Source of the DNA: Styela clava
Lineage: Eukaryota; Chordata; Ascidiacea; Stolidobranchia; Styelidae
Assembly: GCF_964204865.1 (NCBI RefSeq)
Contig: NC_135262.1
Coordinates: forward strand, 4,402,001-4,466,000
DNA: 64,000 bases
Direction: 5' to 3'
Shown: piece after piece, positions 27,301 to 63,998 of the stretch
How the letters are laid out: each line of letters starts with the position of its first letter
Position numbering within the stretch: position 1 is the stretch's first letter
Translations under genes and position numbers: made by a program
Notes under the pieces: model-generated
Databases searched by the model: none
Told to the model about the DNA's origin: nothing
The model's input: only the letters and a program-made list of their open reading frames with translations

Positions 27301-28347
27301 TCTTGTACATGCGAGTAATTTCAATCTCTTTGCGTTGCAAAGCCTCTAATTTATTATCTATGCCTATGGCATTACAATGCCCTAACTAGCTTGTCATAAG
27401 ATCAATAACCAAAATTTTTGCTCCTGCGCTACTAGAAAGCCTATGTTAAATGAAGGTTTGGTTTGTGGTTTCACCCAGTTTTTTGTATCTGGCTCCTCAG
27501 CCCTAGAGTAAAAATCATGAATTCAAACTTTCAATGATGATTATCGAAGTGGAAAAATTCTGACACTAAATCAAATATTATTTAGTTAAGTAAGCATTCT
27601 CAACAGACAATTAGCAAAGGATTGCATGGGGGAAAAACTTTTTGTTCAGGCTAACGTTTTTTATTTGAAATATTGTTTTCTGAGATGGGGATGGAGTCAG
27701 AACTTTCTCCAGCATGGAGTCTGTGTTCAGAGTCAAAACTTTTGTTAACCAGAGTTGGAGTTATTTTTAAAATTGCTAGGAGTTGAGTCGGTTGAAAGTT
27801 TTTCAAGACCACATAACACTCCTATCACTAAATATCTGGAATGGATTATTAACAATCATCATTTGTTCTCAGGTACATGTTTGAAGATCTTGACCGAATA
27901 TCTGGATACTATCGCGTTCCGTTCAGACTTTCGAAAAACATAGAACAGGATTTCTTTGCGAAAGGTTCTGTTAAAGCTCAGCGTCTGTTGACTTATGTAC
28001 AGGAGAAATCACCGGACCTATTGAATGGAATTTCAGATGAGATTTTCAAAAGAATCTGGGTTGACAATATTGACATTTCTGAGAAAAAAAGCTTACGAGA
28101 AGCGTGTGAAGCAGCTGGATTGTCCTCCACAGAATCTTCCAATGCTTTGGATGAAATAAATCATCAATCTGTTAAGGAAGGGCTGAAGAAAGCTACTTCG
28201 TATGCTATTGAGTGCGGGGTGTTTGGCACTCCTACCTATATTTTACACAGAAATGGAAAGAAGGACATGTTATTTGGTACTGATAGAATCTTCCTTCTTG
28301 CTCATTATTTGAATGAACCTTGGCCAGTGTTCCCAAATGAGGAATAA
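21365..28347 (+). CDS. GSTK1: Glutathione S-transferase kappa, two coding exons
   Basis: Exon 1 is 21365-21558 (donor GTAAGT, phase 2) and exon 2 is 27873-28347 (acceptor TTCTCAG, stop TAA). The join gives an intact protein of 222 aa, against about 226 in human. Kappa GSTs have a DsbA-like thioredoxin fold and conjugate or reduce substrates with glutathione in mitochondria and peroxisomes (family knowledge). The N-terminus ELFYDVLSPYS places the catalytic-type serine at residue 16, as in the human enzyme. RPVLVGGI follows, then the helical insertion, the FGTP cis-proline loop (about 182-185) and FGTDR (about 199-203), equivalent to the glutathione-binding FGSDR. An upstream ATG at 21362 adds one Met; 21365 is chosen by alignment with the duplicate exon. 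No peroxisomal C-terminal tripeptide is seen. The 6.3-kb intron holds a frameshifted duplicate exon 1. Only this exon 2, of five copies in the window, keeps a normal acceptor and an open frame. Confidence 0.82.
22322..22490 (-). mobile_element. Possible reversed non-LTR retrotransposon 3' end
   Basis: On the minus strand a GAAGACCTTCTTAGGTCCCT-type segment leads into GACAAAATAAACGATTGATT and a TGAT-type simple-repeat tail (22322-22340). This is typical of LINE 3' ends. No reverse-transcriptase frame is visible, and the 5' limit is unknown. Confidence 0.35.
23771..24247. mobile_element. Non-autonomous hAT element, 477 bp
   Basis: The left end CAGTGGTTCTCAAACTTCTT and the reverse complement of the right end, CCGTGGTTCTCAAAGTGGGC, match at 13 of the first 14 positions. 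The 8-mers TGTTGAAG (23763-23770) and TGTTAAAG (24248-24255) match at 7 of 8. It lies in the GST kappa intron. Confidence 0.75.
24896..25090 (+). pseudogene. Duplicate GST kappa exon 1, frameshifted
   Basis: This parallels exon 1 at 21365: it begins MSLKRHLVELFYDVLSPYSY, ends in a GTGAGT donor, and has the same intended splice phase (it would complete an Arg codon with exon 2). One extra T in the run at 24968-24970 shifts the frame and brings a TAG about 14 bases later. It sits in the intron of the intact gene. Either it is a dead alternative first exon, or the extra T is an assembly error and it is usable. Confidence 0.8.
26837..26930 (+). mobile_element. tRNA-derived SINE-like repeat, copy 3
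   Basis: GGGGTGGCGCATCGTGCTTA, GGAATACACTTGCGACCGCA, CTTCTGATTACACTTCG and CATTCGAACCC (B-box-like) align with copies at 7801 and 14650. It lies in the GST kappa intron. Confidence 0.55.
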
Positions 28348-28408
28348 TGACAGAAAATAACTGATTCCTCCATCAAGTCTATTGATAAATATGCATGAGG
28401 GGCCTGAG

Positions 28409-28711
28409 CAGTGGTTGGCAACCCTTTTTCAGTGACGGACCGGTAACATCTGACCAAAATTTTGGCGGACCACCTTCATACAAATTACAGACAAACTTAT
28501 CTAACGTGATAATTTATACGCGCTAGGAAAGTTGACAATACATTCAAAAACAAAGTAGTTTTTGTAGTTGTCAATTTTGAAAATCTGACCACACATACTG
28601 GTAACAATGCTATTAGGGCATTGTACGTTTTTTGTGTCACCTTTCTGCGGGCCGGTAGTACTCTTTCCGTGGACCGGCGATGGGCCACGGCCCGGTGGTT
28701 GCCGACCACTG
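28409..28711. mobile_element. hAT-type MITE, 303 bp (twin at 48042)
   Basis: The left end CAGTGGTTGGCAACCCTTTT and the reverse complement of the right end, CAGTGGTCGGCAACCACCGG, match at 14 of 15. GGACCGG and CGGCCCGG motifs lie just inside. The copies downstream of the GST-kappa-like ORFs at 34.4 and 42.5 kb have the uninterrupted sequence. Flanking 8-mers do not match clearly. Confidence 0.7.
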
Positions 28712-30582
28712 TTCTATAGTATAAGTAGGCATTCGGTTGATATTGTGCATAGCCTATTGCTGACGTAGCTACATAAAAATACAGATTGGAAATCTTCTTG
28801 AAAATAAACTATTTTCTAATCTTCGATTCGATTGGCGGTTCTATTATCCACACAACAAACTACGGATATCTCCTGTCACCCCTTTAACAATTAGCTCTGA
28901 ATTCATTGTTTGCAACACAGTATCTCATTATTGTTGTTATTTAAATGTATAACAGTCTTGTTCGGTGTGCCTACCATGTGATTTATTGCAGATTCATGCC
29001 GTGTTTCACTGTAATATAAGACCTAGCCAGAAATTTTGGAATGATTTTAATGCAAGCCCTCTCTTTAAAAGAAGACCTAGTCGATAGCGCGAACTTTTTT
29101 GACCTAAGCAATAGCAAGAAATCTTTTCCACACAATTTAAATGAATAATCTAAAACGTGTGAGAGGGGGAAAAGGTTCAATGACCTGAATAATCTATGTT
29201 CAGCATTTTTTTGCTAACAAAAACGTGTTATCGGTTTTCATATTTTGTATATTCTCTTCTTTGTAATTTTGTTTTTATTAAATAAAAGAAATTCTCTAAA
29301 AATAAGCCGTGGTATTATGGAGAAAATTGAAATAAAACCCTGTTTTATTTTCAGGGAAACACGGTATGCTTCTTGTATTACCTATATTATTTTGGCTTTG
29401 TAGCACAACCTTTTTGTGCACTAATGTTCTCATGAAAATTTCTTTAAAATGTTAAAATTTTAATTGGGGCAATTTTGTATTATTATTCATTTTATATTGC
29501 TCCCATATCATGTAAGATTATTGCATGCTTTGTCAGTGGCCACTACATTTTGATAAATATTTTAAATCAAGTTTTATTCCAAGCGAAATTTCGATCAAAC
29601 AGGTTCGAAAAACCCCAGTTCAATTGATTTTATTTATTATCATAAAAGATGCCAATCGAAAAAATGTGTAATAACAATTTGACGCGAAACACTCGAAGAT
29701 CACTCAACATTATTGAAATACACTTATTGTATGATTATATTATACCTGTGACCTTTGAATTTTTTATATTTAAACTATATCCATATAAAAATATTGACAA
29801 CCCCGGGACTGGGAACCTTATTTCAAAATCACTGTTCTTAATCAATGTCACAGATATGGGCAATGAAGCACTTTGCACCTGCAAAGTATCCAGTGATCCT
29901 GTCTCTCATGATCAACTTTCAAGAGATTCTAATCTGCGAACATGCAGGTTTTCAGCAGTGCAATGGCAAGCCTGTTCCAAACTTACCTATTGGTATGGCT
30001 GTCCAAGCGAACCGAATATTCAAAATCGAATCAAATTGCATAATATTCAAATTGTTTCAAGATTAATTTGCGAATCCTTAAAATAGGTACATGAAGCGGA
30101 AAAACCTATTGACTACCTTTGCACAGCGTTTTCCACCGGGCAAGTGGCGTCGCAGCGTTCTTAGAGGACTCTTGCCCTTCTGCATTACTGGTTTTCTGAT
30201 ATTTCTCTCTCCTTAATTTGTGTGAAAAAGGAATGCCCGATGGCATGTCATTAGCAATTTGGTCATGCATGGTCATAACTGAAAAGTTATTATCGGCTTG
30301 ATATTAAAAACATCACAAAAATATTCGATTCCAATCAAAAAAATATTCGATCTTGGACAGCCCTCGCTATTAACCAGTCAATTTAATTATATTTTATAAA
30401 CATGCAATACTTTACATGCCCCTTGTATACCCACAATTAGTGGAACCTTAATTCTGAAGCATGTAGCCTCAATTAAAATCAAAATTTTTATGAAATGATG
30501 TAAATAAAAATTCCTAACAATTATCAATATAAGCCTATTGAATTCCAGTAATATTTTTTAACCAATTGCTAAACTTCTCCAG
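28712..30582. other. K1 upstream region
   Basis: No independent gene is recognised. An open frame at 29649-30086 is discussed in the findings. The region ends at a conserved pyrimidine-rich acceptor, CTTCTCCAG, at 30574-30582. Confidence 0.4.
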
Positions 30583-30617
30583 GTTGCATGGTCATATTTT
30601 TTGTGAATATTATTTAG
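30583..30617 (+). promoter_or_regulatory. K1 5' leader: conserved acceptor and 9-codon uORF
   Basis: The sequence CTAAACTTCTCCAG|GTTGCATGG is shared by all six kelch genes and looks like the acceptor of a 5' UTR intron. The ATG at 30588 opens a short frame closed by TAG at 30615-30617, 15 bp before the kelch start. Confidence 0.5.
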
Positions 30618-30632
30618 AGTAATAACTTGACG

Positions 30633-32279
30633 ATGTCAAAGGTTTCAGATGATGAGTTTGATTTGGATATTGATGTAAATGAACACAATGCATTGATGAT
30701 GGGAAAAATGCATAGTATGAAAAAAGACGGACAACATTCTGACCTCGTCATCAAAGTAGTAAGTGAAGAGTTCCTGGTTCACAGGAACATGATGTCAGCG
30801 GGTTCTGATTATTTTAATGCGATGTTGTCACATGATAACTTGGAAAGCAACACTGGAATTGTTGATATGAAGGAAGTCGATGTCAATTCTGTGAAAGTTT
30901 GCATTGATTATATTTACACTGGAAAAGCTTCAATTACTTTGGAGAAAAGTGAACGACTACTCCATGTTGCAGCTTTGATGCAATTATCAGTACTTTGTGA
31001 TAAGATAGCTGTGTTTCTTGAAGCCAAGTTGGATGTGAAATCACTTCTCATCATCAAACAAATTGCTTCTATGTTTGAAATTCAAATATTAAAAACAGCA
31101 TGTGATGAATTTGCATTGACTAATATGGGAGCAATTTCACAGGAAGAATACTTCAATGAATTGGATGTGGAATTCATCTCTTTCATGGTTGGATCGAAAA
31201 ATTTAGATTATTCTGAGGATTCTAAACTTGCTGTTCTTCTGCAATGGATCAAAGCTGATATTGGCCAAAGAAAGAAGCTTCTTGTTGAAATGATAAATCT
31301 GATAAACCTGAACAATGTTTCATCTCGATATGCAACATTCTTAGTGGAAAATGAAAGCCTGTGTGTTGAATCACCTTTAATCATGAAATTATTGTTTCTC
31401 AAAATGACAGAGAAATTTGGTGTTAAAGGAGAATCTGCAAAAATCCCCGCTAATGCATCTGAATTCAATACTTTTGCTGTTTTTGACAAAACTTCGACGA
31501 AAATCAAAACATTCCATTCAGAACAAAATGAATGGCAAGAACTAAAAAATCTGCATGATAGTATGGTAGACAGCCTTTACACTGCAGTCATGGTGAAGGA
31601 TTTCATCTATGTTTTTATTGATGATAATCGTTCTGTATATCGTATTAATATTTCTGAACCAGATTCAACTTGGACGAGATTGTCTGATCAGCAATGTGAC
31701 CATGAAATGTATTTACAAGCAGCAGTTTGTAATGAATTCATTTATCTGTGTGGCAATGGTACATTGGAGGAGTACATTATCAGCAAAAATATGTGGAGTG
31801 TGGTGAAAAGTGAAAAGATTGTGCTAATGTATTGTACATTAGTTGGATTCCAGGAATCACTTTATGTGATTGGAGGTTACTCAGGTCGTAGTTTAGCATC
31901 TGTGAATCGATATTTACAACAATCCACTTGGTCTTCAGTCAAAGCAATGAATGTTCCTAGGCAGATTCCTGCCGCTACTGTTTATAGAAATCGAATATTT
32001 GTGGCAGGCGGATATGGTCTTGGATCCTTATCAAGTTCAGAGTTCTATGATGCACAAACAGATTCTTGGACAAATTTAGCCTCTATGACTGTTCCTCGGT
32101 ATGGTTTTAGCCTTTGCACTGTTGGTGATGAATTATTTGCAATAGGAAGTGATAAAGTCGGATCACAATTAGTTGAGAAATACAGTTTTGAATCAAATCG
32201 TTGGGAGCATCATATTAATATTCCAGAAAATATGAATATTGCTCCACTTGCCAGTCTGGCATATAAACTTCCGTCTTAG
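30633..32279 (+). CDS. BTB-BACK-Kelch protein K1
   Basis: Intron-less, 548 aa. The start is ATG in TTGACGATGTC; the preceding in-frame TTG is not used. A BTB domain spans about 26-130 (HSDLVIKV, FLVHRNMMSAGSDYFNAML, CIDYIYTGKASI, CDKIAVFL), BACK about 135-245, and Kelch repeats about 280-548. The best blades are the last three (SLYVIGGYSG, RIFVAGGYG, ELFAIGS), with the W-x6-M spacing of STWSSVKAM and DSWTNLASM. The earlier blades lack the Gly-Gly pair. KLHL proteins generally use BTB-BACK to bind Cullin-3 and Kelch to bind the substrate (family knowledge; the target is unknown here). It is near-identical to K4: Arg51/Lys, Asp192/Ala and Glu358/Asp are the only differences I see. A tunicate- or lineage-specific paralogue is likely, so no symbol is assigned. 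Confidence 0.93.
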   Translation: MSKVSDDEFDLDIDVNEHNALMMGKMHSMKKDGQHSDLVIKVVSEEFLVHRNMMSAGSDYFNAMLSHDNLESNTGIVDMKEVDVNSVKVCIDYIYTGKASITLEKSERLLHVAALMQLSVLCDKIAVFLEAKLDVKSLLIIKQIASMFEIQILKTACDEFALTNMGAISQEEYFNELDVEFISFMVGSKNLDYSEDSKLAVLLQWIKADIGQRKKLLVEMINLINLNNVSSRYATFLVENESLCVESPLIMKLLFLKMTEKFGVKGESAKIPANASEFNTFAVFDKTSTKIKTFHSEQNEWQELKNLHDSMVDSLYTAVMVKDFIYVFIDDNRSVYRINISEPDSTWTRLSDQQCDHEMYLQAAVCNEFIYLCGNGTLEEYIISKNMWSVVKSEKIVLMYCTLVGFQESLYVIGGYSGRSLASVNRYLQQSTWSSVKAMNVPRQIPAATVYRNRIFVAGGYGLGSLSSSEFYDAQTDSWTNLASMTVPRYGFSLCTVGDELFAIGSDKVGSQLVEKYSFESNRWEHHINIPENMNIAPLASLAYKLPS

Positions 32280-33588
32280 TAAATGCAATATGTATTGCAT
32301 CAGCATTAAGAATATAGGAAACAGGCCACTATGAGTTCCATTTGATTTTTAAGTGTTTCAATTTGATTAAATTATCTATTTTGATATTATATGTAGCAAA
32401 CAATGAATGATTATTATAGTACAATTTTCTGTAATTAAGACAAATTTTATTGATATGCTCATATATATGATCTTATTATTATGTTTGAAAAACTTAAACA
32501 AGTTGAATCATGTATTAATATTTCGTTTTATTCTATAGTTAGTCTTCATATGTATGTGTAGTTCTATATACTATATCGTTTAAATTTGGTTTGTTCCCTG
32601 AATGCATTTTTATTCAAAACATAACTTGATGGTGTGAAACTGGCCACTGTTTTTTACACCTGGTTTGCTTTTTCTCTCAAAAAGGAAGGCTGTTGAAGAA
32701 ATGAGCTTTGATAAATACTTTTCCAAGCGGATTTTAATTTAGGGAAAAGGCTTTCATCCTTTATGAGCCTTGCTTGCGGTTGAATTCAAAGGATGTATGC
32801 AGTACGTATTGATTTACTGTTTATTATCACAAATATTGTACTACGTTTTTCATTTGTTACATTTATCTTTACATATTTTTCGGCTTATTGTCTAAAAATC
32901 CCCTTGGCTTACTGCATTCAATATTGGTTTATCGCATCTTCCTTCACACTGAAATGCATTTTTTTCACCTGGTTCTATTCTGTAAAAATATTCTGTCTTC
33001 GACATGTGTAAAAATAAACTACTGATGACTGGTGGTTACAAAAGCTTAATTTGGAAGTGAGAGGGGACATTACACCCATTACAGTTTTAAGAAAAGTTCA
33101 TGATACAGTGGTCACTTGCTTTTCTATTGTCCTGTATAACATTGTGAGCATATATATATGATCGAACTATGGTAGCATGACAGTTTAACATCTTAGATTC
33201 AAATCCCATGGCCACCACCTAAATTAGTACGACTTTTATATCACAACCTAGATGATGTAAATACCATTTGTTAGCTTTTTATACTTCGCTTTCTTATATT
33301 CTTCATTTAATAATTCTTATACTTAGCTAATTCGTTGAATCAGACATGTGTTGTAGCATCGATGGCAATAAAATTCTGAGTCACCAACAAAATTTGTTAT
33401 TGTGCATTCCCAGATAAGGTTTTTACAATTTTAAATAATTGTGTTAAGAAGTTGGAATAAAAATTAATCAGGAATTTCTTCAAATATATTGTATGAAATG
33501 GTATGCATGTTACATTTTACTGCATTTAATATTGTGTTGTATTAAATTTAGTTTTATATCTAGTGAGTTGTCTAAATATTTGATTCTA
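32280..33588. other. K1 to relic-2 interval
   Basis: K1 3' flank. The undisturbed target site of the 52864 hAT insertion is at about 33245-33252 (ACCTAGAT once). A tRNA-like AGATTCAAATCCC motif lies near 33195 and recurs after the other kelch genes. No gene was seen. Confidence 0.45.
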
Positions 33589-33756
33589 ATGGAATTTGAT
33601 CTTGGTATCGATGAAATTGAACACAAGAACATGATGATGAAACGTGATGATTTGAAAAAGAAGAATCGCCATTCTGAAAAGAAGAATCTCACAATCAAAG
33701 TAGGAAATGAAGAGTTTCTGCAAAGTTTTCAATCTCAAATTTTGGGTTTTCCCTGA
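33589..33756 (+). pseudogene. Relic of a kelch gene 5' end (relic 2)
   Basis: The frame MEFDLGIDEIEHKNMMMKRD aligns with the kelch N-terminus (EFDLDIDVNEHNALMMGK), then LTIKVGNEEFL aligns with LVIKVGSEEFL, and it stops soon after. Nothing of the remaining BTB, BACK or Kelch follows. Confidence 0.7.
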
Positions 33757-33932: not shown

Positions 33933-34419
33933 TACATGTTTGAAGATCTTGATCGAATATCCCAATACTATTATGTTCCGTTCCAACTTCTGAAAAACAT
34001 AGAGAAGGATTTCTTTGCGAAAGGTTCTGTTAAAGCTCAGCGTCTGTTGACTTATGTACAGGAGGAATCACCGGAACTATTGAACGGAATTTCAGATGAG
34101 ATTTTCAAAAGAATCTGGGTTGATAATGTTGACATATCTGAGAATAAAAGCTTACAAGAAGCGTGTGAAGCAGCTGGATTGTCCTCAATCTTCCAATGCT
34201 TTGAATGAAATAAATCATCAATCTGTCAAGGAAGGGCTGAAGAAAGCTACTTCATATGCTATTGAGTGCGGAGTGTTTGGCACTCCTACCTATATTTTAC
34301 ACAGAAATGGAAAGAAGGACATGTTGTTTGGAACTGATAGAATCTTCCTTCTTGCTCATTATTTGAATGAGCCTTGGCCAGTATTCCCATGTGATGAATG
34401 TGAAAGAAAAATAAACTGA
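33933..34419 (+). pseudogene. GST kappa exon 2 copy 2, broken
   Basis: This corresponds to 27873-28347 but lacks an upstream exon 1. The acceptor is changed (CCCAAGTACATG instead of CTCAGGTACATG). A 5-bp loss near 34185, where the reference reads TCCTCCACAGAATC, shifts the frame after LSS. The second half stays open to 34419 and ends CDECERKIN instead of NEE. Confidence 0.85.
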
Positions 34420-37088: not shown

Positions 37089-38738
37089 ATGGCTAAGGTT
37101 TCGGATAAAGAGTTTGATCTGGATATTGATGTAAATGAACACAATGCATTAATGATGGGAAAATTGCATAGTATGAAAAAAGATGGTCAACATTCCGACC
37201 TCGTCATCAAAGTAGGAAGTGAGGAGTTCCTGGTTCACAAGAACATGATGTCAGCGGGTTCTGATTATTTCGATGCGATGTTGTCACATGATAACTTGGA
37301 AACCAACACAGGAATTGTTCAAATGCAAGTTGTTGATGTGGAATCGGTAAAGATTTGCATTGATTACATTTACACTGGAAAAGCTTCAATTACTTTGGAA
37401 AAAAGTGAACAACTACTCCATGTTGCAACTTTGATGCAATTATCAGTACTTTGTGATAAGATAGCTGAGTTTCTCAAAGCAAAGTTGGATGTGAAATCAC
37501 TTCTCATCATCAAACAAATCGCTTCTATGTTTGAAATTCAAACATTAAAAACAGCATGTGATGATTTTGCATTGTCTAATATGGGAGCAATTTCACAGGA
37601 AGAATACTTCAATGAATTGGATGTAGAATTCATCTCCTTCATGGTTGGATCGAAAAATTTATCTTATTCTGAGGATTCTAAACTTGCTGTTCTTCTGCAG
37701 TGGATCAAAGGTGATATTGACCAACGAAGAAAACTTCTGGTTGAAATGATAAATCTGATAAACCTGAATAATGTTTCTTATCGATATGCAACATTCTTAG
37801 TGGAAAATGAAAGCCTGTGTGTTGAATTACCTGTAATCTTAAAATTATTGTTTCTCAAAATGGCTGAGAAGTCTGGTGTTAAAGGAGCATCTGCAGAAAT
37901 TCCCACCAATGCACCTGAATTCAATGCATTTGCAGTTTTTGACAAGACTTCGAGAAAAATCAAAACATTCCGGCCAGAAAAAAAAGAATGGCAGGATCTA
38001 AAAAAACTGCATGATGGTATGGTAAATAGCTATTACACTGCAGTCATGGTGAAGGATTTCATCTATGTTTTTATGGAGAATCGTTCAGTATATCGTATTA
38101 ATATTTCTGGACCAGATTCAACTTGGAATAAAATAGCTGATTACCAATTTGAACATGGCCAGTTTTTGCGAGCAGAATTTTGTAATGAATTCATTTATCT
38201 TTTCGGCATGAAAACATTAGAGGGGTATGATATCAGCAAAAATGTGTGGGGCCTGGTAAAAACAGAAAAAATGACACTATTCAACTGTACATTAGCTGGA
38301 TTCCAGCAATCAATTTACATACTAGGAGGTTCTAATAATGGTAGTTTATCATCAGTGAATCGATATTCACTGCCATCCACTTGGTCTTCATGCAAAGCCA
38401 TGAATGTTCCTCGGGAGCTTCCTGCTGCTACAGTTAATGGGAATCGAATATTTGTGGCAGGCGGATTTAATAATATCTACGGGTCATTATCTAGTTCAGA
38501 GTTTTATGATCTACAAACAGACTGTTGGACAAATTTAGCCTCAATGACAGTTCCTCGGTGTTATTTTCGCCTTTGCACTGTTGGTAATGAATTATTTGCA
38601 ATTGGGGGTGAAAAAGGCCGGTCAAAATCGGTTGAGAAATACAATTTTGAGTCAAGTCATTGGGAGAATCTTATAAATTTTCCAGAAAATATGAATATTG
38701 CTCCACTTGCCAGTCTGGCATATAAACTTCCACCATAG
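37089..38738 (+). CDS. BTB-BACK-Kelch protein K2
   Basis: Intron-less, 549 aa, ATG in TTGACAATGGC. The BTB domain is close to K3, K5 and K6 (FLVHKNMMSAGSDYFDAML). BACK follows, and Kelch shows SIYILGGSNNG, RIFVAGGFNN and ELFAIGGEKG blades. The first half of the propeller differs strongly from K1 (FRPEKKEWQDLKKLHDGMV; FEHGQFLRAEFCNEFIYLFG). From about residue 175 to the end it is near-identical to K5, whereas the earlier part is not. The stop TAG (38736-38738) is 1 bp before a hAT element, so the original 3' UTR is displaced by 1.7 kb. Confidence 0.92.
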   Translation: MAKVSDKEFDLDIDVNEHNALMMGKLHSMKKDGQHSDLVIKVGSEEFLVHKNMMSAGSDYFDAMLSHDNLETNTGIVQMQVVDVESVKICIDYIYTGKASITLEKSEQLLHVATLMQLSVLCDKIAEFLKAKLDVKSLLIIKQIASMFEIQTLKTACDDFALSNMGAISQEEYFNELDVEFISFMVGSKNLSYSEDSKLAVLLQWIKGDIDQRRKLLVEMINLINLNNVSYRYATFLVENESLCVELPVILKLLFLKMAEKSGVKGASAEIPTNAPEFNAFAVFDKTSRKIKTFRPEKKEWQDLKKLHDGMVNSYYTAVMVKDFIYVFMENRSVYRINISGPDSTWNKIADYQFEHGQFLRAEFCNEFIYLFGMKTLEGYDISKNVWGLVKTEKMTLFNCTLAGFQQSIYILGGSNNGSLSSVNRYSLPSTWSSCKAMNVPRELPAATVNGNRIFVAGGFNNIYGSLSSSEFYDLQTDCWTNLASMTVPRCYFRLCTVGNELFAIGGEKGRSKSVEKYNFESSHWENLINFPENMNIAPLASLAYKLPP

Positions 38739-38739
38739 T

Positions 38740-40446: not shown

Positions 40447-40454
40447 ACCATAGT

Positions 40455-41678
40455 CAATGCTATATTTATATCATAAGCATTAAGAATATATGAAACAGGC
40501 CACTATGAGTTCCACTTGATTTTTAAGCGTTTCAATTTGATTAAATTATCTATTTTGATAATATACATAGACAATGAATGATTATTATAGGGCAATTTTC
40601 TGTATTTGAGCCGAATTTTATTGATATGCTAGTTTGAAAAACTCAAACAAGATAAATCATGTATTAATATGTAGTTTTACTCTATAGTCTTCATATCTAT
40701 GTGTAGTTCTATACGCTGTATCGTTTAAATTTGGTTTGTTCCATGAATTTTATTTTTTATTCAAAACATAACTTGATGGTGTGGAACTGGCCACTGTTCT
40801 ATATTCTCTTTGCTGACTGAATAGCTGAAGGAAGAGTTCTATGAAAAATTCACCGAGGTTTAATTTTAGAATGAAACTTCTTATCTTTTAAGATTTGTTT
40901 GTGGCTGAACTCAGAGGGATATGTACTGATTAATTTCTACTAGTATAAATATTGTTCGTTTTTTATTTATTGCAATTATTTTATATATTTTGCAGCTTAT
41001 TCGTATTTGGCCAAGTTTCTATTAATCTCAATCTATGTGAGGAATTTAGGTCTCAGTGCTAGTAAACCATATCCTATAATTGTTACCTTTAGTATTTATA
41101 TTTTTCTTTAGCGTAGTGTTGGGTGCAAAAGCTTAATTTGGCAGTGAGGAGGGACATTACGTCCATAATAGTTGGAGAAAATCATCTCACAATATATAAC
41201 ATTGTTCTGTGTAAAATTGTGAGAACTTGTGTTCGAACTGAGTTAGCATCAGATATTAATATCTTAGATACAAACCCCATGGCCACCTCACCGAGTACGA
41301 CTTGTATATCACAACCTAGATGATGTAACTTTCTTTTGTTAACTCATATATACTTTGCTTTCCTATATTCTTCATTTGATAATACTCATGCCTGGCTATA
41401 TTGATCAATCAGACATGTCTTGTAGCATTGAGCAAGCACTGTTATTGGCAAAAAATTTGTAGTCACCAACAGAATTTGTTATTGTGCATCCCCAGTGCAT
41501 TCTCAAAGGAAATTTTTATAATTTTATATAATTGATTTAAGAAATTGCGGTAGGTAATCAGAAATTTCTTCAAATATACTGTATAAAATACTATGCATGG
41601 AACATTTTACTGCATTTAATAACTTGTTGTATTATATTTAGTTTTAAATCTAGTGAGTTGTCTAAATATTTGATTATA
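40455..41678. other. K2 to relic-3 interval
   Basis: The original K2 3' flank (CAATGCTATATTT, conserved after K3 as well) followed by unrecognised AT-rich DNA. No gene. Confidence 0.45.
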
Positions 41679-41843
41679 ATGGAATTTGACTCTGGTATTA
41701 ATGAAAATGAACACAAAAACATAATGATGACGAAATTTGATGATTTGAGAAAGAAGAATACCATTCTGATCTCACAATCAAAGTATGAAGCAGAGAGTTA
41801 CTGCAAAGTTTTCAATCTCAAATTTTGGGTTTCTCTGAAATAG
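41679..41843 (+). pseudogene. Relic of a kelch gene 5' end (relic 3)
   Basis: MEFDSGINENEHKNIMMTKF aligns with the kelch N-terminus, then the frame departs and stops. Near-identical to relic 5 at 59809. Confidence 0.65.
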
Positions 41844-52863: not shown

Positions 52864-54650
52864 CAGTGGTTCCCAAACTTTTTTGACCATCGCCCCCCTA
52901 AAGTAGTTTATACAACTTCATCGCCCCCCAGCACTACAAAAAAATGTAAAGTCAGAAACGAATATATTACAGACCAAATGAGAAGACAAATCATAGTTTA
53001 TAGTGTTTGTTAATGAGATGGATGAGCTTGGTGTTCTTCAGCAAGTTTTTTATTAGTAGCACGGCTCAAAAACGCTTTTTCACCATATATTAGGTCGGAA
53101 ATGAAAGAATCCAGGGTTCTATCTCCTTAAAAAACGTCGTGTACTCTTGCCTTATAGCATTTCACTTCCTAAATTCACCAAATTTCACATTAAATTAATG
53201 AAAGCAAAGTTAATTTTCGCATATATTTTTTAAAAGTTAAAAACGGAACAACGCGCGAAAACTGAGACAATTCGTGAACTCAACTCAGTCGTCTTATTAA
53301 AAAATATTACAATGACATTTAATGTGACACTGTCATGTTGATGCATCACGCTTGATAGCTTTACGACGCCAAGATTGGAACATTTTCTAAATGGGCATCA
53401 CTAATCCCAGTTCTTCGCTTGTTCTTTGTAATGTCTCCATTTTCGAAAAAAATTGTTTGCACAAAAATATGTACTTCCAAACATCTAAGTGAATATTCTC
53501 GCATGGTTTGTGAAATTTTGATAAAGATTTTTTTTAGGAAGATACTTTCTTACAAAAATTACGCAGTGATGAATCTCTCGAATAGAATATGAATTTTAAT
53601 TCCTTATTGCATTGCAATATATTCGAGTACTTACTGCGCTATTGAACCCCTGCCCTCAGCATCAACTTTTTTTCCTCGTGTTTCCATTTGTCTAATTATA
53701 ATTAAATTCTAAGCTCGTTAAACGAGTAGCTAGCTGTTTAATAGAATTTTTAGGCTATAATAAAATTTAGTCTAAACGTGTCTCACGATAAATTCTGTTA
53801 CGTAAAAAAATGTAATTTACTCCTCGAGCGTAGATAAATAAAATAAATTCATCGTCAAAACCGCCGTTTGGATGTTTCCCCGGGCATAGACTTCCTTGCT
53901 TACATCGTGACATTGGCCAATCAGCAAGATGCAAAAATAAACGTAACAATGCCCCCTTTCGCATCCGCTCAGACAGACTTTCAGGCGTGGTCGTGAACAT
54001 TCCTCATTTTTGAATTAAATTCGTTAGTTTTTAGTTGTTTTTCGGAAATTTAAATAAAAATCATATAAGTCAATGATTACTTTGTCCTCCTATGAGTTTC
54101 AGTTTAAATACGGTAATCAAAAATTGGTGTAGAAATAGCTGTGATGGACTATAGGCTAAATTTTTTTATCGGTACTTTTAAAAAACAGATTGTTGAATGG
54201 TATGAATTAGAATGATAGTTTGAAACAAATACCCTATTTTACAGGCAAACACTCGCGAAACCACTCTTAAAAATAAGCACCGAAAATTTAAAAATGATAA
54301 AGTATATAGGAAGAATTTTACGCGGTCAAAAGTCGGGGATAGGTCTATTCAGTGAATCGTCCCGGGCCATATTTTTTTACTTAAGCCGTATTTTGTCGAC
54401 CACTGGGATACGCCAACTACCGTACCTTACTGCGGAGACGAGTCCAGAAATCCTTTCGCGTGTGATAATTGACCACGTGAATCAAGTCTGCGAATGCACA
54501 CAGCGTAGGCTACAGAATTGAGTGCACGATACGCAGAGCAATAACAGATTTCGCGAAATCGCCCCCCTATCGCCCCCTTCGACTTTTTCGCCCCCCTCTG
54601 TATCGTTTTCGCCCACCGGGGGGCGATATCGCCCACTTTGGGAATCACTG
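52864..54650. mobile_element. Young non-autonomous hAT element, 1787 bp
   Basis: The ends CAGTGGTTCCCAAACTTTTT and (reverse complement) CAGTGATTCCCAAAGTGGGC match at 13 of the first 14 positions. The perfect 8-bp duplication ACCTAGAT lies at 52856-52863 and 54651-54658. The sister locus at about 33240-33260 carries ACCTAGAT once and no insertion. CGCCCCCC-type motifs lie inside both ends. No transposase frame is recognisable. Confidence 0.92.
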
Positions 54651-54658
54651 ACCTAGAT

Positions 54659-55182
54659 GATGTAAATATCATTTGTTAGCTTTTTATACTTTGCTTTCTT
54701 ATATTCTTCATTTAATATTTCTTATACTTAGCTAATTCATTGAATCAGACATATGCATCGATGACAATAAAATTTTGAGTCACCAACAAAATTTGTTATT
54801 GTGCATTCCCAGATAAGGTTTTTATAATTTTAAATAATTGTGTTAAGAAGTTGGAATAAAAATTAATCAGGAATTTCTTCAAATAAGTTATTACCGGTTC
54901 GATATTAAAAACATCACAAAAATATTCGATCTTGGACAGCCGTCCCTATTACCCAGTCAATTCAATTATATCATATTTTATATACATACAAGACATTACA
55001 TAAATGCCTCTTGTCTACCCACAATTAGTGGAACCTTAATTCTGAATTCTGCTTCAATTGAAATCAAAATTTTTATGAAATGATGTAAATAAAAATTCCT
55101 GACAATTATCAATATAATCCTAACCTGTTGAATTCCAGTAATATTTTTTAACCAATTGCTAAACTTCTCCAGGTTGCATCAC
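54659..55182. other. Recombination junction upstream of K5
   Basis: Up to about 54884 the sequence follows the K1 3' flank (33253-33485). From about 54886 it follows the region upstream of K3 (from about 43923). The relic, GST kappa copy and 806-bp element that lie between K1 and K2 are absent. Confidence 0.75.
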
Positions 55183-55231: not shown

Positions 55232-56881
55232 ATGGCAAAGGTTTCGGATAATGAGTTTGATTTGGATATTGATGTAAATGAACACAATGCATTAATGATG
55301 GGTAAATTGCATAGTATGAAAAAAGATGGACAACATTCTGACCTCGTCATCAAAGTAGGAAGTGAGGAGTTCTTGGTTCACAAGAACATGATGTCAGCGG
55401 GTTCTGATTATTTTGATGCGATGTTGTCACATGATAACTTGGAGACCAACACAGGAATTGTTAAAATGCAAGATGTTGATGTGGAATCAGTAAAGGTTTG
55501 CATTGATTACATTTACACTGGAAAAGCTTCAATTACTTTGGAAAAAAGTGAACAACTACTCCATGTTGCAACTTTGATGCAGTTATCAGTACTTTGTGAT
55601 AAGATAGCCGAGTTTCTCAAAGCTAAGTTGGACATGAAAACACTTCCCTTTATCAAACAAACTGCTTCTATGTTTGAAATCCAAACAATAAAAACAGCAT
55701 GTGATGATTTTGCATTGTCTAATATGGGAGCAATTTCTCAGGAAGAATACTTCAATGAATTGGATGTAGAATTCATCTCCTTCATGGTTGGATCGAAAAA
55801 TTTATCTTATTCTGAGGATTCTAAACTTGCTGTTCTTCTGCAGTGGATCAAAGGTGATATTGACCAACGAAGAAAACTTCTGGTTGAAATGATAAATCTG
55901 ATAAACCTGAATAATGTTTCTTATCGATATGCAACATTCTTAGTGGAAAATGAAAGCCTGTGTGTTGAATTACCTGTAATCTTAAAATTATTGTTTCTCA
56001 AAATGGCTGAGAAGTCTGGTGTTAAAGGAGCATCTGCAGAAATTCCCACCAATGCACCTGAATTCAATGCATTTGCAGTTTTTGACAAGACTTCGAGAAA
56101 AATCAAAACATTCCGGCCAGAAAAAAAAGAATGGCAGGATCTAAAAAAACTGCATGATGGTATGGTAAATAGCTATTACACTGCAGTCATGGTGAAGGAT
56201 TTCATCTATGTTTTTATGGAGAATCGTTCAGTATATCGTATTAATATTTCTGGACCAGATTCAACTTGGAATAAAATAGCTGATTACCAATTTGAACATG
56301 GCCAGTTTTTGCGAGCAGAATTTTGTAATGAATTCATTTATCTTTTCGGCATGAAAACATTGGAGGGGTATGATATCAGCAAAAATGTGTGGGGCCTGGT
56401 AGAAACAGAAAAAAATACACTATTCAACTGTACATTAGCTGGATTCCAGCAATCAATTTACATACTAGGAGGTTCTAATAATGGTAGTTTATCATCAGTG
56501 AATCGATATTCACTGCCATCCACTTGGTCTTCATGCAAAGCCATGAATGTTCCTCGGGAGCTTCCTGCTGCTACAGTTAATGGGAATCGAATATTTGTGG
56601 CAGGCGGATTTAATAATATCTACGGGTCATTATCTAGTTCAGAGTTTTGTGATCTACAAACAGACTGTTGGACAAATTTAGCCTCAATGACAGTTCCTCG
56701 GTATTATTTTGGCCTTTGCACTGTTGGTAATGAATTATTTGCAATTGGAGGTGAAAAAGGCCGGTCAAAATCGGTTGAAAAATACAATTTTGAGTCAAGT
56801 CATTGGGAGAATCTTATAAATTTTCCAGAAAATATGAATATTGCTCCACCTGCCAGTCTGGCATATAAACTTCCACCATAG
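55232..56881 (+). CDS. BTB-BACK-Kelch protein K5 (K3/K2 chimera)
   Basis: Intron-less, 549 aa. The leader and about the first 165 residues follow K3 (for example KTLPFIKQ in BACK). From about residue 170 to the end it follows K2, with a handful of differences (Glu for Lys in GLVETEK, Cys for Tyr in EFCDLQ, RYYFG for RCYFR, APPAS for APLAS). Domain order is unchanged, so a working BTB-BACK-Kelch protein is predicted. The stop (56879-56881) is 1 bp before the same hAT element as in K2. Confidence 0.92.
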   Translation: MAKVSDNEFDLDIDVNEHNALMMGKLHSMKKDGQHSDLVIKVGSEEFLVHKNMMSAGSDYFDAMLSHDNLETNTGIVKMQDVDVESVKVCIDYIYTGKASITLEKSEQLLHVATLMQLSVLCDKIAEFLKAKLDMKTLPFIKQTASMFEIQTIKTACDDFALSNMGAISQEEYFNELDVEFISFMVGSKNLSYSEDSKLAVLLQWIKGDIDQRRKLLVEMINLINLNNVSYRYATFLVENESLCVELPVILKLLFLKMAEKSGVKGASAEIPTNAPEFNAFAVFDKTSRKIKTFRPEKKEWQDLKKLHDGMVNSYYTAVMVKDFIYVFMENRSVYRINISGPDSTWNKIADYQFEHGQFLRAEFCNEFIYLFGMKTLEGYDISKNVWGLVETEKNTLFNCTLAGFQQSIYILGGSNNGSLSSVNRYSLPSTWSSCKAMNVPRELPAATVNGNRIFVAGGFNNIYGSLSSSEFCDLQTDCWTNLASMTVPRYYFGLCTVGNELFAIGGEKGRSKSVEKYNFESSHWENLINFPENMNIAPPASLAYKLPP

Positions 56882-56882
56882 T

Positions 56883-58603: not shown

Positions 58604-59808
58604 CAATGCTATATTTATATCATAAGCATTAAGAATATATGAAACAGGCCACTATGAGTTCCACTTGATTTTTAAGCGTTTCAATTTGATTAAATTATCT
58701 ATTTTGATAATATACATAGACAATGAATGATTATTATAGGGCAATTTTCTGTATTTGAGCCGAATTTTATTGATATGCTAGTTTGAAAAACTCAAACAAG
58801 ATAAATCATGTATTAATATGTAGTTTTACTCTATAGTCTTCATATCTATGTGTAGTTCTATACGCTGTATCGTTTAAATTTGGTTTGTTCCATGAATTTT
58901 ATTTTTTATTCAAAACATAACTTGATGGTGTGGAACTGGCCACTGTTCTATATTCTCTTTGCTGACTGAATAGCTGAAGGAAGAGTTCTATGAAAAATTC
59001 ACCGAGGTTTAATTTTAGAATGAAACTTCTTATCTTTTAAGATTTGTTTGTGGCTGAACTCAGAGGGATATGTACTGATTAATTTCTACTAGTATAAATA
59101 TTGTTCGTTTTTTATTTATTGCAATTATTTTATATATTTTGCAGCTTATTCGTATTTGGCCAAGTTTCTATTAATCTCAATCTATGTGAGGAATTTAGGT
59201 CTCAGTGCTAGTAAACCATATCCTATAATTGTTACCTTTAGTATTTATATTTTTCTTTAGCGTAGTGTTGGGTGCAAAAGCTTAATTTGGCAGTGAGGAG
59301 GGACATTACGTCCATAATAGTTGGAGAAAATCATCTCACAATATATAACATTGTTCTGTGTAAAATTGTGAGAACTGGTGTTCGAACTGAGTTAGCATCA
59401 GATATTAATATCTTAGATACAAACCCCATGGCCACCTCACCGAGTACGACTTGTATATCACAACCTAGATGATGTAACTTTCTTTTGTTAATTCATATAT
59501 ACTTTGCTTTCCTATATTCTTCATTTGATAATACTCATGCCTGGCTATATTGATCAATCAGACATGTCTTGTAGCATTGAGCAAGCACTGTTATTGGCAA
59601 AAAATTTGTAGTCACCAACAGAATTTGTTATTGTGCATCCCCAGTGCATTCTCAAAGGAAATTTTTATAATTTTATATAATTGATTTAAGAAATTGCGGT
59701 AGGTAATCAGAAATTTCTTCAAATATATGCAACATTTTACTGCATTTAATAACTTGTTGTATTATATTTAGTTTTAAATCTAGTGAGTTGTCTAAATATT
59801 TGATTATA
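58604..59808. other. K5 to relic-5 interval
   Basis: Near-identical to 40455-41678. No gene. Confidence 0.45.
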
Positions 59809-59973
59809 ATGGAATTTGACTCTGGTATTAATGAAAATGAACACAAAAACATAATGATGACGAAATTTGATGATTTGAGAAAGAAGAATACCATTCTGAT
59901 CTCACAATCAAAGTATGAAGCAGAGAGTTTCTGCAAAGTTTTCAATCTCAAATTTTGGGTTTCTCTGAAATAG
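59809..59973 (+). pseudogene. Relic of a kelch gene 5' end (relic 5)
   Basis: Near-identical to relic 3 (41679-41843), with Phe for Tyr in AESFCKVF. Confidence 0.65.
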
Positions 59974-60163
59974 AGTCAGAATTTTCGCCAGCATGGAAAT
60001 GTATTCGAAGTCACAATCATTGTTAACCCAAATTGGATTTGCAAAATCAATAGGTGTTTGGAAGTGGAGTCAGTTGAAAGTTTTCCAGGACCACATAACT
60101 CTTCTAGTCCTATCAATAAATATCTAGAATGAATATTTAACAATTATCATTCTTTCTAAAGTA

Positions 60164-60640
60164 AATGTTTTTAGATCTTGACCGAATATCTGAATACTAT
60201 CGCGTTCCGTTCCAACTTCTGAAAAACACAGAGGAGGATTTCTTTGCGAAAGGTTCGGTTAAAGCTCAGCGTTTGTTGACTTACGTACAGAAAGAATCAC
60301 CTGAACATTTGAATGGACTTTTAGATGAGATTTTCAAAAGAATCTGGGTCGACAATGTTGACATTTCTGAAAATAAAAGCTTACGAGAAGCGTGTGAAGC
60401 AGCTGGATTGTCCTCCATAGAATCTTCCAATGCTTTGAATGAAATAAATCATCAATCTGTCAAGGAAGAACTGAAGAAAGGTACTTCATATGCTATTGAG
60501 TGCGAGGTGTTTGGCACTGCTACATATATATTACACAAAAATGGAAGATGGAATGGAAGGACATGTTGTTTGGTACTGATAGAATATTCCTCCTTGCTCA
60601 TTATTTGAATGAGCCATGGCCAGTGTTCCCAAATAATGAA
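60164..60640 (+). pseudogene. GST kappa exon 2 copy 5, broken
   Basis: The acceptor is lost (TCTAAAG) and TAA precedes the Met, as in copy 3. Its first 120 bp equal copy 3; after about 60280 it matches copy 4 better (VQKESPEHLNG). An insertion near 60545 (GGAAGATGGAATGGAAGG) shifts the frame, and the end reads out of phase to 60608. FGTA replaces the FGTP loop. Confidence 0.8.
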
Positions 60641-62301
60641 TGAATATGAACTAATTCCTGTGTCAACTCTATTGATAAATATGATTAAGGGGACTTAAAT
60701 ATTATAAGTATGATTTCGGTTAATATTGTACACAGCTTATTGCTGACATACATAAAAACACAGCTACATAAAAATATCAATCGAAAAGCTGCCGAAAATT
60801 GAACAATTTTTCCATCTTTAATGCGATTGGCGAGTCTATTATCCACATGACAAACTACAGATGTCTTTTGTCACCTCTTTATCTATAATCTCTGATTTGA
60901 TTGTTGTAAGCACAGTACCTCATTATTGCTGTTGTTTAAATATATATTACACCTTTGTTGGAGGTACTTAAACCACTGCTATCTTTAGATGTGACCGATT
61001 GAAGTTTAATACCGTATTACCCCGAATATAAGTCCTAGCCTGAATTTCAAAAATGATTAAAATAAGACCTAATCGATTATGCAAAATATTTTTTTGACTT
61101 AGTTGATAGCAATAAATTTCTCCTACACGTTTTGAAGGATTAGTCAAAAACGTATGAGAGAGAAAAAGGTTTAAAGATCTGAATAATCTATGTTTAGCAG
61201 TTTTTTAAACTAAAAATATGTTATTCATAAGTAAATTGATCTCGGTTTTCATATTTTGTATATTTAAAAATCTTTTAATTCTTTACTGTGTAATTTCGTT
61301 TTTGATAAATGAAAATAAAAAATCCTCTAAAAATAAGCCCTGGTGTTATTTTTTGAAAGAAAATTGAAATAAGACCCGGTCTAATTTTTGAGGAAACACG
61401 GTATACTTCTTGTATTATATTATTTTGACTTTGTAGCACACCCATTTTGTGCACCAATGTTGTCATAAAAATTTCTTTAAAATGTTAAAATTTTATTGGG
61501 TTATTTTTAAATTATTCATTTTGTATTGCTTTCATATCATGTAAGATTATTGCATACTTTGTCAATGGCCACATTTAAATTTACATTTTGATGAAAATTT
61601 TGAGTTAAGTTCCATTTGTCTTTGAATGTGATCATATTTTTTGTTCATTTGCTCGGAACAAGGCTTTAGACAAATTATAGCAAAAATATATTTGTTGTTG
61701 AACCGATTAACCATCGTTAGTATAATAGAAAAAGCCTTTTCATATTCATCCCATAAGGAGTGAAAATCAATACCATAGCTTAGTCATATAGTGAACTACT
61801 TACTGCCTCTTATTCAATTACCAGACCAAGAGGTATATTTTCTCTGGTTATTCAGTCTAGATCAGTGGTTTTGAACCTTTTTGGTGTAGCGAAATATTGC
61901 CCTTCGCATAACTGGTTTCTCGATATTTCTCTCACCTTCATTTTGTGTTAAAAAAATGCCTAGTAACCTGTTATCAGCAACTTCACGCATGTTCATAACT
62001 GAAAGATTCAGTGATAAACACCGATTAGAGAAAAATATTCGATTCAAGTCGAAAAATTATTCGATTTTGGACAGCCCTACCTATTAGCCAGTCAATTGAA
62101 TCATATTTTATAAACATGCAAGACTTTACATGCCCCTTGTATACCAACAATTAGTGGTAGCTTAATTTTGAAGCATGTAGCTTCAATTGGAATCAAAATT
62201 TTTATGAAATGCTCCCTTTGATAATTTCTAGTAGCTATCAACATAAACCCAACCCAATAAATTCCAGTAATATTTTTTAACCAATTGCTAAACTTCTCCA
62301 G
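60641..62301. other. K6 upstream region
   Basis: Diverged K1-type upstream sequence. A truncated hAT left end (CAGTGGTTTTGAACCTTTTT) starts at 61863. No gene. Ends in the CTTCTCCAG acceptor. Confidence 0.45.
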
Positions 62302-62321
62302 GTTGCATGGACATATTTTAG
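62302..62321 (+). promoter_or_regulatory. K6 5' leader: acceptor and 4-codon uORF
   Basis: ATG at 62307 closed by TAG at 62319-62321. Confidence 0.45.
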
Positions 62322-62354
62322 TGAACATAAGTTAATTAGAATAATAACTTGACA

Positions 62355-63998
62355 ATGGCAAAGGTTTCGGATAAAGAGTTTGATTTGGATATTGATGTAA
62401 ATGAACACAATGCATTGATGATGGAAAAAATGCATAGTATGAGGAAAGACGGACAACATTCTGACCTCGTCATCAAAGTAGGAAGTGAGGAGTTCCTGGT
62501 TCACAAGAACATGATGTCAGCGGGTTCTGATTATTTCGATGCGATGTTGTCACATGATAACTTGGAGACCAACACAGGAATTGTTGACATGCAAGATGTT
62601 GATGTGGAATCAGTAAAGGTTTGCATTGATTACATTTACACTGGAAAAGCTTCAATTACCTTGGAAAGAAGTGAACAACTACTCCATGTTGCAACTTTGA
62701 TGCAGTTGTCAGTACTTTGTGATAAGATAGCTGAGTTCCTCAAAGCTAAGTTGGATGTGAAATCATTTCTCATCATCAAACAAATTGCTTCTATGTTTGA
62801 AATTCAAACATTAATAACAGCTTGTGATGATTTTGCATTGTCTAATATGGGAGCAATTTCTCAGGAAGAATGCTTCAATGAATTGGATGTGGAATTCATC
62901 TCTTTCATGGTTGGATCGAAAAATTTATCTTATTCTGAGGATTCTAAACTTGCTGTTCTTCTGCAGTGGATCAAAGCTGATATTGACCAACGAAGGAAGC
63001 TTCTGGTTGAAATGATAAATTTAATAAACCTGAACAATGTTTCTTATCGATATGCAACATTCTTAGTGGAAAATGAAAGACTGTGTTCTGAATCACCTGT
63101 GATTTTGAAATTATTGTTTCTCAAAATGGCGGAGAAGTTTGGCGTTGAAGGAGCATCTGCAGAAATCCCCGCTAGTGCATCTGAATTCAATGCTTTTGCT
63201 GTTTTTGACAAGACTTCCAAAACAATAAATTCATTCTATCCAGAAAAAAGTGAATGGCAGGAATTAAAAAATCTGCATGATAGTATGATAAACAGCAATT
63301 ACACTGCTGTCATGGTGAAGGATTTTATCTATGTTTTTATTGGTAATTGTTCAGTATATCGAATTAATATTTCTGAACCAGATTCAACTTGGAATAAAAT
63401 TGCTGATCATCAATGTCACCATGGTCAATATTTACGAGCAGCAGTTTGTGATGGATTCATTTATTTGTGTGACAAGGAAACATTGGACGAGTACAATATC
63501 AGTCAAAACATGTGGACGGTGGTAAAAAGTGAAAAAATTACGCTATACAATTGTACTTTAGTTGGACTGCAGGAATCACTTTATGTAATAGGAGGTTTTT
63601 TAAATGGTAGTTTATCCTCAGTGAGTCGATATTCACAACAATCTTCTTGGTCTTCAGTCAAAGCGATGAATGTTCACAGGCAAAATCCTGCTGCTACTGT
63701 TTATGGAAATCGAATATTTGTAGCAGGCGGATTTGATGGTGTATATTTATCTAGTACAGAGTTCTATAATCCACAAACAGATTCTTGGACAAATTTATCA
63801 TCCATGACTGTTCCTCGGGGTGGTTTTTGTCTTTATGCTGTAGAAAACAAACTATTTGCAATTGGAGGTAATAGACAGGGATCAAAATCAATTGAGAAAT
63901 ACAATTTTGAATCAAGTCGTTGGGAGCATCTTATGAATTTTCCAGATAATATGGATATTGCTCCACGAGCCAGTCTGGCATTTAAACTTCCACCATAG
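62355..63998 (+). CDS. BTB-BACK-Kelch protein K6
   Basis: Intron-less, 547 aa, ATG in TTGACAATGGC. BTB is nearly the same as K2, K3 and K5. BACK has DVKSFLIIKQ. Kelch blades include SLYVIGGFLNG, RIFVAGGFDG and KLFAIGGNRQ. The outer propeller segment (FYPEKSEWQELKNLHDSMI; CHHGQYLRAAVCDGFIYLC) is nearest K3. Here His replaces the Pro of NVPR (AMNVHRQNPAATV). The stop is 2 bp before the window end, so the array may continue beyond it. Confidence 0.92.
   Translation: MAKVSDKEFDLDIDVNEHNALMMEKMHSMRKDGQHSDLVIKVGSEEFLVHKNMMSAGSDYFDAMLSHDNLETNTGIVDMQDVDVESVKVCIDYIYTGKASITLERSEQLLHVATLMQLSVLCDKIAEFLKAKLDVKSFLIIKQIASMFEIQTLITACDDFALSNMGAISQEECFNELDVEFISFMVGSKNLSYSEDSKLAVLLQWIKADIDQRRKLLVEMINLINLNNVSYRYATFLVENERLCSESPVILKLLFLKMAEKFGVEGASAEIPASASEFNAFAVFDKTSKTINSFYPEKSEWQELKNLHDSMINSNYTAVMVKDFIYVFIGNCSVYRINISEPDSTWNKIADHQCHHGQYLRAAVCDGFIYLCDKETLDEYNISQNMWTVVKSEKITLYNCTLVGLQESLYVIGGFLNGSLSSVSRYSQQSSWSSVKAMNVHRQNPAATVYGNRIFVAGGFDGVYLSSTEFYNPQTDSWTNLSSMTVPRGGFCLYAVENKLFAIGGNRQGSKSIEKYNFESSRWEHLMNFPDNMDIAPRASLAFKLPP

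Follow-up and report, generated by a model that had tools for sequence, protein, structure and literature searches.

A BTB-BACK-Kelch gene array in Styela clava, probably built by one founding duplication and unequal exchange and diversified on the target-binding face

The region analyzed here, called the window, is a 64,000-nucleotide stretch of the genome of the ascidian Styela clava (contig C17, positions 4402001-4466000, within a 376.6-Mb assembly of 379 contigs), and positions are numbered from its start. It carries part of a tandem array of genes encoding BTB-BACK-Kelch proteins, among which lie pieces of a glutathione S-transferase kappa (GSTK) gene. In our judgment this is probably an array of likely Cullin-3 (Cul3) adaptors of the KLHL type, which arose by one founding duplication plus unequal exchange and whose genes have been kept and diversified on their target-binding face.

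An earlier reading of the same DNA (the original prediction) had reported six open kelch genes on one strand. These are present as described: all are on the + strand, have one coding exon of 547-549 codons and stop at TAG. That reading let the array end at 63998; however, four more kelch genes follow (K7 to K10, located by reading on through loci L009-L028, with coordinates continued from the window numbering), and then a second GSTK gene on the - strand. The kelch genes are:

30633..32279, + strand: K1, BTB-BACK-Kelch gene, one coding exon
37089..38738, + strand: K2, BTB-BACK-Kelch gene (Pfam BTB, BACK and Kelch_1)
44287..45930, + strand: K3, BTB-BACK-Kelch gene
50240..51886, + strand: K4, BTB-BACK-Kelch gene, protein 99.5% identical to K1
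55232..56881, + strand: K5, BTB-BACK-Kelch gene, protein 97% identical to K2
62355..63998, + strand: K6, BTB-BACK-Kelch gene
66768-68414 (outside the window): K7
70952-72604 (outside the window): K8
74356-75978 (outside the window): K9, a whole gene of type K_B
77550-79283 (outside the window): K10, type K_C

K1 to K8 are of one type, K_A, with at least 76% protein identity to K1, while K9 and K10 represent two older types (46% and 39% identity to K1). Three of the ten genes (K2, K9 and K10) were scanned for domains, and all three match BTB (PF00651, E 1.2e-20 in K2) and BACK (PF07707, E 3.9e-10 in K2). In K2 the Kelch repeats match PF01344 (E 6.9e-25, two stretches passing); the six blades were counted by eye along the repeat motif. 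The AlphaFold model obtained for K2 is weak (mean pLDDT, the predicted local distance difference test score, of 58.1) and unsuited to a fold search. By sequence match, the best solved chains for the BTB-BACK part are KLHL11 and KLHL3, and those for the whole protein are designed propellers (SAKe), then KEAP1 and KLHL12. An acceptor-like site (cttctccag|gttgcat) lies about 50-60 bases 5' of the ATG in all eight K_A genes, suggesting that they have a spliced 5' leader, for which no exon further upstream was identified. When the window was compared with itself, repeats well beyond chance were confirmed, with matches of 5.7 kb at 94.2% and 6.1 kb at 94.5%.

The GSTK sequences of the array are as follows, G1 to G5 being the copies of exon 2 in the window:

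21362..21558, + strand: GSTK-A exon 1, DSBA domain, donor AA|GTAAGT in phase 2; first exon of the array's one complete + strand GSTK gene
24896..25091, + strand: second copy of GSTK exon 1, decayed (frameshift, stop), inside GSTK-A intron 1; 76% DNA identity over 152 bases, also matched by tblastn
27873..28347, + strand: G1, GSTK-A exon 2, open, acceptor CAG|G; repeat homology starts at 27656; matches GST kappa in PDB
33933..34401, + strand: G2, exon-2 piece with a 5-base deletion, acceptor CAGG changed to CAAG
42032..42505, + strand: G3, exon-2 piece without indel, first codon TAA
47518..47983, + strand: G4, exon-2 piece with several indels; CAG acceptor kept, then 6 extra bases
60162..60643, + strand: G5, exon-2 piece with an 8-base insertion, a mosaic whose 5' part resembles G3
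L011:1476-1928 and 3272-3445, - strand: second, diverged two-exon GSTK gene, after K10, closing the array; 55% (exon 1) and 45% (exon 2) identical to GSTK-A

Five copies of GSTK exon 2 among the kelch genes had been predicted, and five were found in the window by tblastn (matches starting at 27874, 33933, 42035, 47521 and 60165). A genome-wide DNA search yielded six, all within this array, the sixth being shattered (C17:4467292-4467596). In the PDB, exon 2 matched three sequences, all of them GST kappa. Exon 1 accompanies G1 only, through a phase-2 junction from AA|GTAAGT to CAG|G TAC ATG at 27873; GSTK-A is thus the only whole two-exon GSTK gene in the window, and the four other pieces stand without an exon 1. 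G2, G3 and G5 have either lost the acceptor or have it out of phase, and frameshifts are present in G2, G4 and G5. The claim that only the first copy retains an acceptor, an exon 1 and an open frame holds for the three taken together, although the fourth copy also keeps a CAG acceptor. Likewise, the four pieces called decayed do have a frameshift or a first-codon stop, but the third has no indel, and their coding constraint, considered below, does not suit pieces that were dead from birth.

Three side observations concern these sequences. The two GSTK-A first exons, about 3.5 kb apart with the second one broken, are a trace of an older partial duplication. An insertion of about 300 bases with inverted-repeat-like ends (window 28405-28712) follows G1 and G4 but not G2, G3 or G5, and resembles a small transposon that travelled with an exchange block. 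Elsewhere in the genome, C6:18787549-18788157 and C13:16291734-16292321 each hold a DsbA-like match that is nearly full length and stays in one frame, interrupted in one of the two by a TGA.

Between the kelch genes there are also kelch relics, as had been noted. Every one matches the 5' flank of K9 and consists of the flank plus the first 42 codons, or of the flank alone, of a K9-type gene (the whole copy, K9, being located beyond the window):

33280..33720, + strand: r1, 5' flank plus first 42 codons, up to the founding junction; 83% identical to the K9 region 74036-74481
41342..41803, + strand: r2, with a 1-base deletion
46836..47280, + strand: r3, with a stop at codon 24
54637..54884, + strand: r4, 5' flank only, no GSTK piece after it
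59494..59933, + strand: r5, with the same 1-base deletion as r2

In r1, r2, r3 and r5, homology to K9 ends at one and the same base (K9 position 74481, the end of codon 42). These represent three distinct cases of the junction, since r2 and r5 are parts of the same recent exchange block. The homology of r7, beyond the window, stops 8 bases earlier, at 74473, and r4 and r6 retain only the flank. On the other side, homology to the GSTK intron (by BLAST) begins 5 bases past the end of r3 and 37-43 bases past the ends of r1, r2 and r5. At the seven internal junctions between the eight K_A genes, a relic is always present and GSTK exon 2 is found at five; K4-K5 is the one junction in the window that departs from the proposed repeat unit of relic, GSTK exon 2, leader and kelch gene, having a relic and no GSTK piece. 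To the left of G1, between 25100 and 27656, a relic was sought and none was found; at the other end, the relic-like sequences finish with K9 itself, a whole gene. The interval between K9 and K10 has no match elsewhere in the array at E 1e-5 and 60 bases.

The shared junctions and the pattern at the two ends would be accounted for by an ancestral row of GSTK, K_A, K_B (the K9 type) and K_C (K10), in which a tandem duplication ran from a breakpoint within GSTK intron 1 to one at K_B codon 42. The repeat would then be [GSTK exon 2 - leader - K_A - K_B 5' end], leaving GSTK whole only at the left end and K_B whole only at the right. If the unit did begin in GSTK intron 1 and end inside a K9-type gene, this would explain why the internal GSTK pieces have no exon 1 and why the relics end at codon 42. 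The GSTK pieces and the relics thus look like breakpoint fragments and not like whole genes that died. As fragments of this kind would have been truncated when copied, the contrast between intact kelch genes and dead GSTK copies, from which the original prediction had drawn selection, does not measure selection.

Later exchange between units has spread blocks of sequence through the array; the edges of such blocks fall within GSTK exon 2 and within the BTB-BACK portion of the kelch genes:

37590..42103, + strand: recent exchange block, common with 55733-60233, 0-4 mismatches per 100; right edge inside GSTK exon 2
28172..32613, + strand: second exchange block, common with 47805-52220, 0-8 mismatches per 100; left edge inside GSTK exon 2

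Exchange is visible, too, when G3 and G5 are compared, as 2 of 221 bases differ upstream and 39 of 471 in the exon. It also gave K9 a K_A-like BTB domain: at fourfold sites, K9 and K2 have 26 same and 2 different in codons 46-120, and 23 same and 47 different elsewhere (p 5.5e-8). Judged from this pattern, the K9 BTB is a gene-conversion patch that keeps it like those of its neighbours. A weaker dip over the BTB was seen against the second C17 array, with p <0.05 in 13 of 15 comparisons (L041-L045 versus K1, K2 and K8).

The K2 protein matches at least 78 places in the genome, 71 of which are in five arrays (79 of 569 candidates were scored):

C17:4.43-4.48 Mb, + strand: 10 matches, the array of the window
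C17:4.68-4.77 Mb, - strand: 17 matches, the second C17 array
C1:23.02-23.31 Mb: 33 matches, the C1 array
C18:3.13-3.15 Mb: 4 matches
C10:2.68-2.76 Mb: 7 matches

Selection was examined in the first three of these using codon models run with our own script (GY94, F3x4, with naive posteriors), not a published program. For the window array, the models used seven of the eight K_A genes (K4, near K1, was left out) and the pooled counts used six (K4 and K5 were left out). Six of the 17 matched rows were used for the second C17 array, three of them cut at the N-terminus by the choice of coordinates, and 10 of the 33 for the C1 array (L046-L055), hand-picked among the stronger K2 matches and not random. 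Blades were assigned by eye from the Kelch repeat motif, and the b-c and d-a loops were termed "bottom". The limits of the loop classes were set after the site lists of the two C17 arrays were known and before the C1 array was examined, so the C1 array serves as an independent test.

Among the seven K_A genes, dN/dS (omega) was 0.21 for the N-terminus plus BTB, 0.40 for BACK and 0.41 for Kelch, and omega = 1 was rejected in all three (twice the log-likelihood difference, 2dlnL, of 45.6, 19.4 and 66.0). In the C1 array the BTB gave 0.18. The presumed cullin-binding domain is therefore under purifying selection in both arrays. The dN/dS check named by the original prediction, with a value near 1 as its refutation, came out in favor of selection on the kelch genes. 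However, "selection to keep many kelch copies" says less than the data do: the genes are constrained, and change is concentrated on one face of the propeller. The pooled ratio of replacement to silent differences (pN/pS) for bottom loops, top loops and strands was 0.82/0.45/0.42 in the window array (six genes), 1.10/0.56/0.41 in the second C17 array (six genes) and 1.20/0.51/0.42 in the C1 array (ten genes), and in none of the three did a circular shift of the loop classes produce a contrast as large as the one observed. The fastest change is concentrated in the b-c and d-a loops, that is, the substrate face.

Comparison of M8 with M8a gave 2dlnL values of 9.3 (window), 12.4 (second C17) and 112.7 (C1). 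When each piece was allowed its own tree, which accommodates exchange, these became 9.0 (4 degrees of freedom), 9.3 (4) and 80.2 (8); on these values, positive selection in the Kelch domain is well supported in the C1 array and suggestive in the other two. The strongest signal seen was that of M1a versus M2a in the C1 Kelch domain (2dlnL 117). Bottom loops hold 15 of the 18 C1 sites with posterior >0.9, and the C1 BACK domain gave no M8 class signal (2dlnL 0.1).

Several observations weigh against our explanation. In the window array itself, positive selection stays at the suggestive level and bottom-loop pN/pS remains below 1. In the BACK domain of this array, too, an omega class of 2.7 is favoured under M8 (2dlnL 5.4), a warning that exchange between genes can mimic positive selection. 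In the C1 array, a single piece with gapped loop columns (K2 positions 415-448) contributes 35.9 of the 80.2. The AlphaFold model is weak, and the loop classes themselves rest on a motif pattern read by eye. The BTB dip of K10 is significant in one of three comparisons. Some copies have not diverged: K1 is almost identical to K4, and K2 to K5. Divergence is somewhat lower within 50 bases of the founding junction than at 50-250 bases (33/271 versus 202/1188), so a later spread of the junction is conceivable. Finally, groups of the GSTK exon-2 pieces have omega values of 0.30-0.37, where pieces dead from birth predict about 1; for G2-G5 the value is 0.34 (2dlnL 21.2 versus omega = 1).

The alternative that survives best, although an unlikely one, is drift: a young, conversion-rich array whose redundant copies are not yet dead, with no selection for copy number or diversity. 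The near identity of K1/K4 and K2/K5 and the common exchange blocks fit this notion. However, K_A pairs other than these have dS of 0.24-0.34 and omega of 0.31-0.49, three arrays all show loop-specific change, and in two of these arrays the site rates are correlated (Spearman 0.29, p 2.4e-6).

Still less likely is that whole units of GSTK plus kelch genes were duplicated, after which the GSTK copies decayed and selection kept the kelch genes for their number or dosage. The open and constrained kelch frames, as well as the frameshift or first-codon stop in the four other window pieces, agree with this, and the low omega of the pieces would suit GSTK copies that worked until recently. In addition, three relic indels are multiples of three (-3 and +9 in r1, +12 in r7). 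On the other hand, the same break occurs at four junctions, and the sequence flanking it is almost as diverged as more distant parts of the spacer, so exon 1 was probably missing early in the divergence of the units. The relic codons fit neutrality (omega 0.83, 2dlnL 0.19), although pairwise counts, with few changes, are lower (0.23-0.68; r2-r5 undefined). A chimeric relic-GSTK gene was rejected on the same neutrality, in spite of those counts and the three indels. The recent spread of one deletion through whole units, which predicts low divergence beside the junction, is disfavoured as the dip is small.

The constraint in the GSTK pieces is not readily accommodated by any simple account. Their omega is slightly lower than that of the Kelch domains (0.41), a further reason why the kelch-intact, GSTK-dead contrast is no sign of selection. 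Pairwise values for the exon 2 copies were 0.25-0.51, and eight of nine pairs reject 1 at 3.84, the exception being G1-G3 (2dlnL 3.2). As yardsticks, 21 noncoding frames from the units gave 0.59-1.46, with two above 3.84 (highest 6.0), and neutral simulation of pairs gave median values of 0.68-0.96. Simple "dead on arrival" pieces were rejected on these grounds. Conversion homogenising exon 2 alone was rejected as well, since silent divergence in the exon was not below that of the upstream flank in five of six G2-G5 pairs. As exchange edges lie inside exon 2, the copies may have been re-seeded from the working gene; this predicts an omega of about 0.55 (our own estimate), which was weakly rejected (2dlnL 2.8, 5.5 and 4.1 on three star trees).

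One might propose that the pieces function, or functioned, without an exon 1 of their own, as alternative last exons of GSTK-A or in chimeric relic-GSTK transcripts. The low omega of G2-G5 set against the noncoding frames speaks for such a role, as do the lower divergence of exon 2 (0.07-0.13 versus 0.16-0.25 upstream, the G3-G5 pair excepted) and the private changes, which are not more conservative in the complete gene G1 (8 replacement to 2 silent) than in the pieces (31 to 27 in all). However, the lost or out-of-phase acceptors, the frameshifts and the scope for re-seeding through exchange make this improbable too. An assembly artefact, in which alternative haplotypes were stacked as tandem copies, is very improbable: the two exchange blocks do differ by only 0-8 per 100, but they alternate with units that usually show 15-30 differences per 100 in their spacers, and the junctions and end pattern require a real tandem structure.

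Other features of the window include an open frame of 763 codons at 14909-17200 (+ strand) containing two Neuralized stretches and, at its C-terminus, a RING finger, of ubiquitin-ligase type and near the kelch array, as well as a 322-base tandem pair at 968-1611 (98% matches) and a short tandem array of 16/48 bases at 8467-8658. A family search for cytochrome oxidase produced no match, and a pattern for the ascidian spliced leader was hit 2 times, against 1 for its reversed control.

Overall, what the original prediction observed is confirmed with the corrections given above and its interpretation is partly supported; of greater interest are the diversification of the substrate face and BTB conversion across arrays. 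Under the explanation by founding duplication, exchange and diversification, the statistics describe proteins with a conserved BTB and fast-changing b-c and d-a loops, positive selection being suggestive here and strong in C1. BTB-Kelch proteins are described as substrate adaptors of Cul3 ligases in excerpts of PMC6484134 and PMC1257465. From sequence we infer that the proteins encoded here are expressed and bind Cul3, each docking through its BTB and bringing its own substrate to ubiquitination. The targets would probably be fast-changing ones: proteins of parasites, viruses or selfish elements, or rival host proteins. More tentatively, and with rather less likelihood, the arrays might constitute a germline-diversified intracellular recognition system, a defence-like KLHL repertoire with positively selected substrate faces, in which BTBs kept alike by conversion could let paralogues mix as heterodimers and recombination edges could let BTB-BACK and Kelch modules be shuffled.

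If our explanation is true, Kelch propellers join the few ubiquitin adaptors that behave like recognition receptors, and predictions at the level of residues follow. The arrays belong to an animal genome, and in them the loops presumed to bind targets evolve rapidly, while the Cul3-docking half remains uniform. A caution also follows: gene fragments left by array breakpoints are unsuited as a neutral contrast for selection. KLHL proteins have mostly been studied as conserved one-to-one regulators. A literature search covering titles and the openings of abstracts turned up nothing on positive selection in an animal KLHL array among the papers listed.

Among known systems, the two-exon GSTK gene with its DSBA-like domain resembles GST kappa (GSTK1), although here only exon 2 was swept into a repeat, leaving five further copies without exon 1. 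The kelch proteins have BTB, BACK and Kelch in the order given for KLHL proteins in the part of PMC1257465 that bears on it. For KLHL20, the relevant portion of PMC6720452 describes BC and DA loops as shaping the substrate surface. A passage of PMC10146909 describes KLHL loops as conserved within each protein, whereas paralogues of one array here differ most in those loops. The nearest known kind is that of the fast-evolving families of ubiquitin-ligase adaptors. The nematode F-box and MATH-BTB adaptors, as summarized in a section of PMC4334554 citing the original study, evolve by birth and death, with positive selection in the substrate-binding and not in the cullin-binding domain. The present arrays are like them in this, with positive selection well supported in the C1 array, but differ in that a Kelch propeller does the binding, with its b-c and d-a loops changing fastest, and in that the BTB has undergone conversion between subfamilies.

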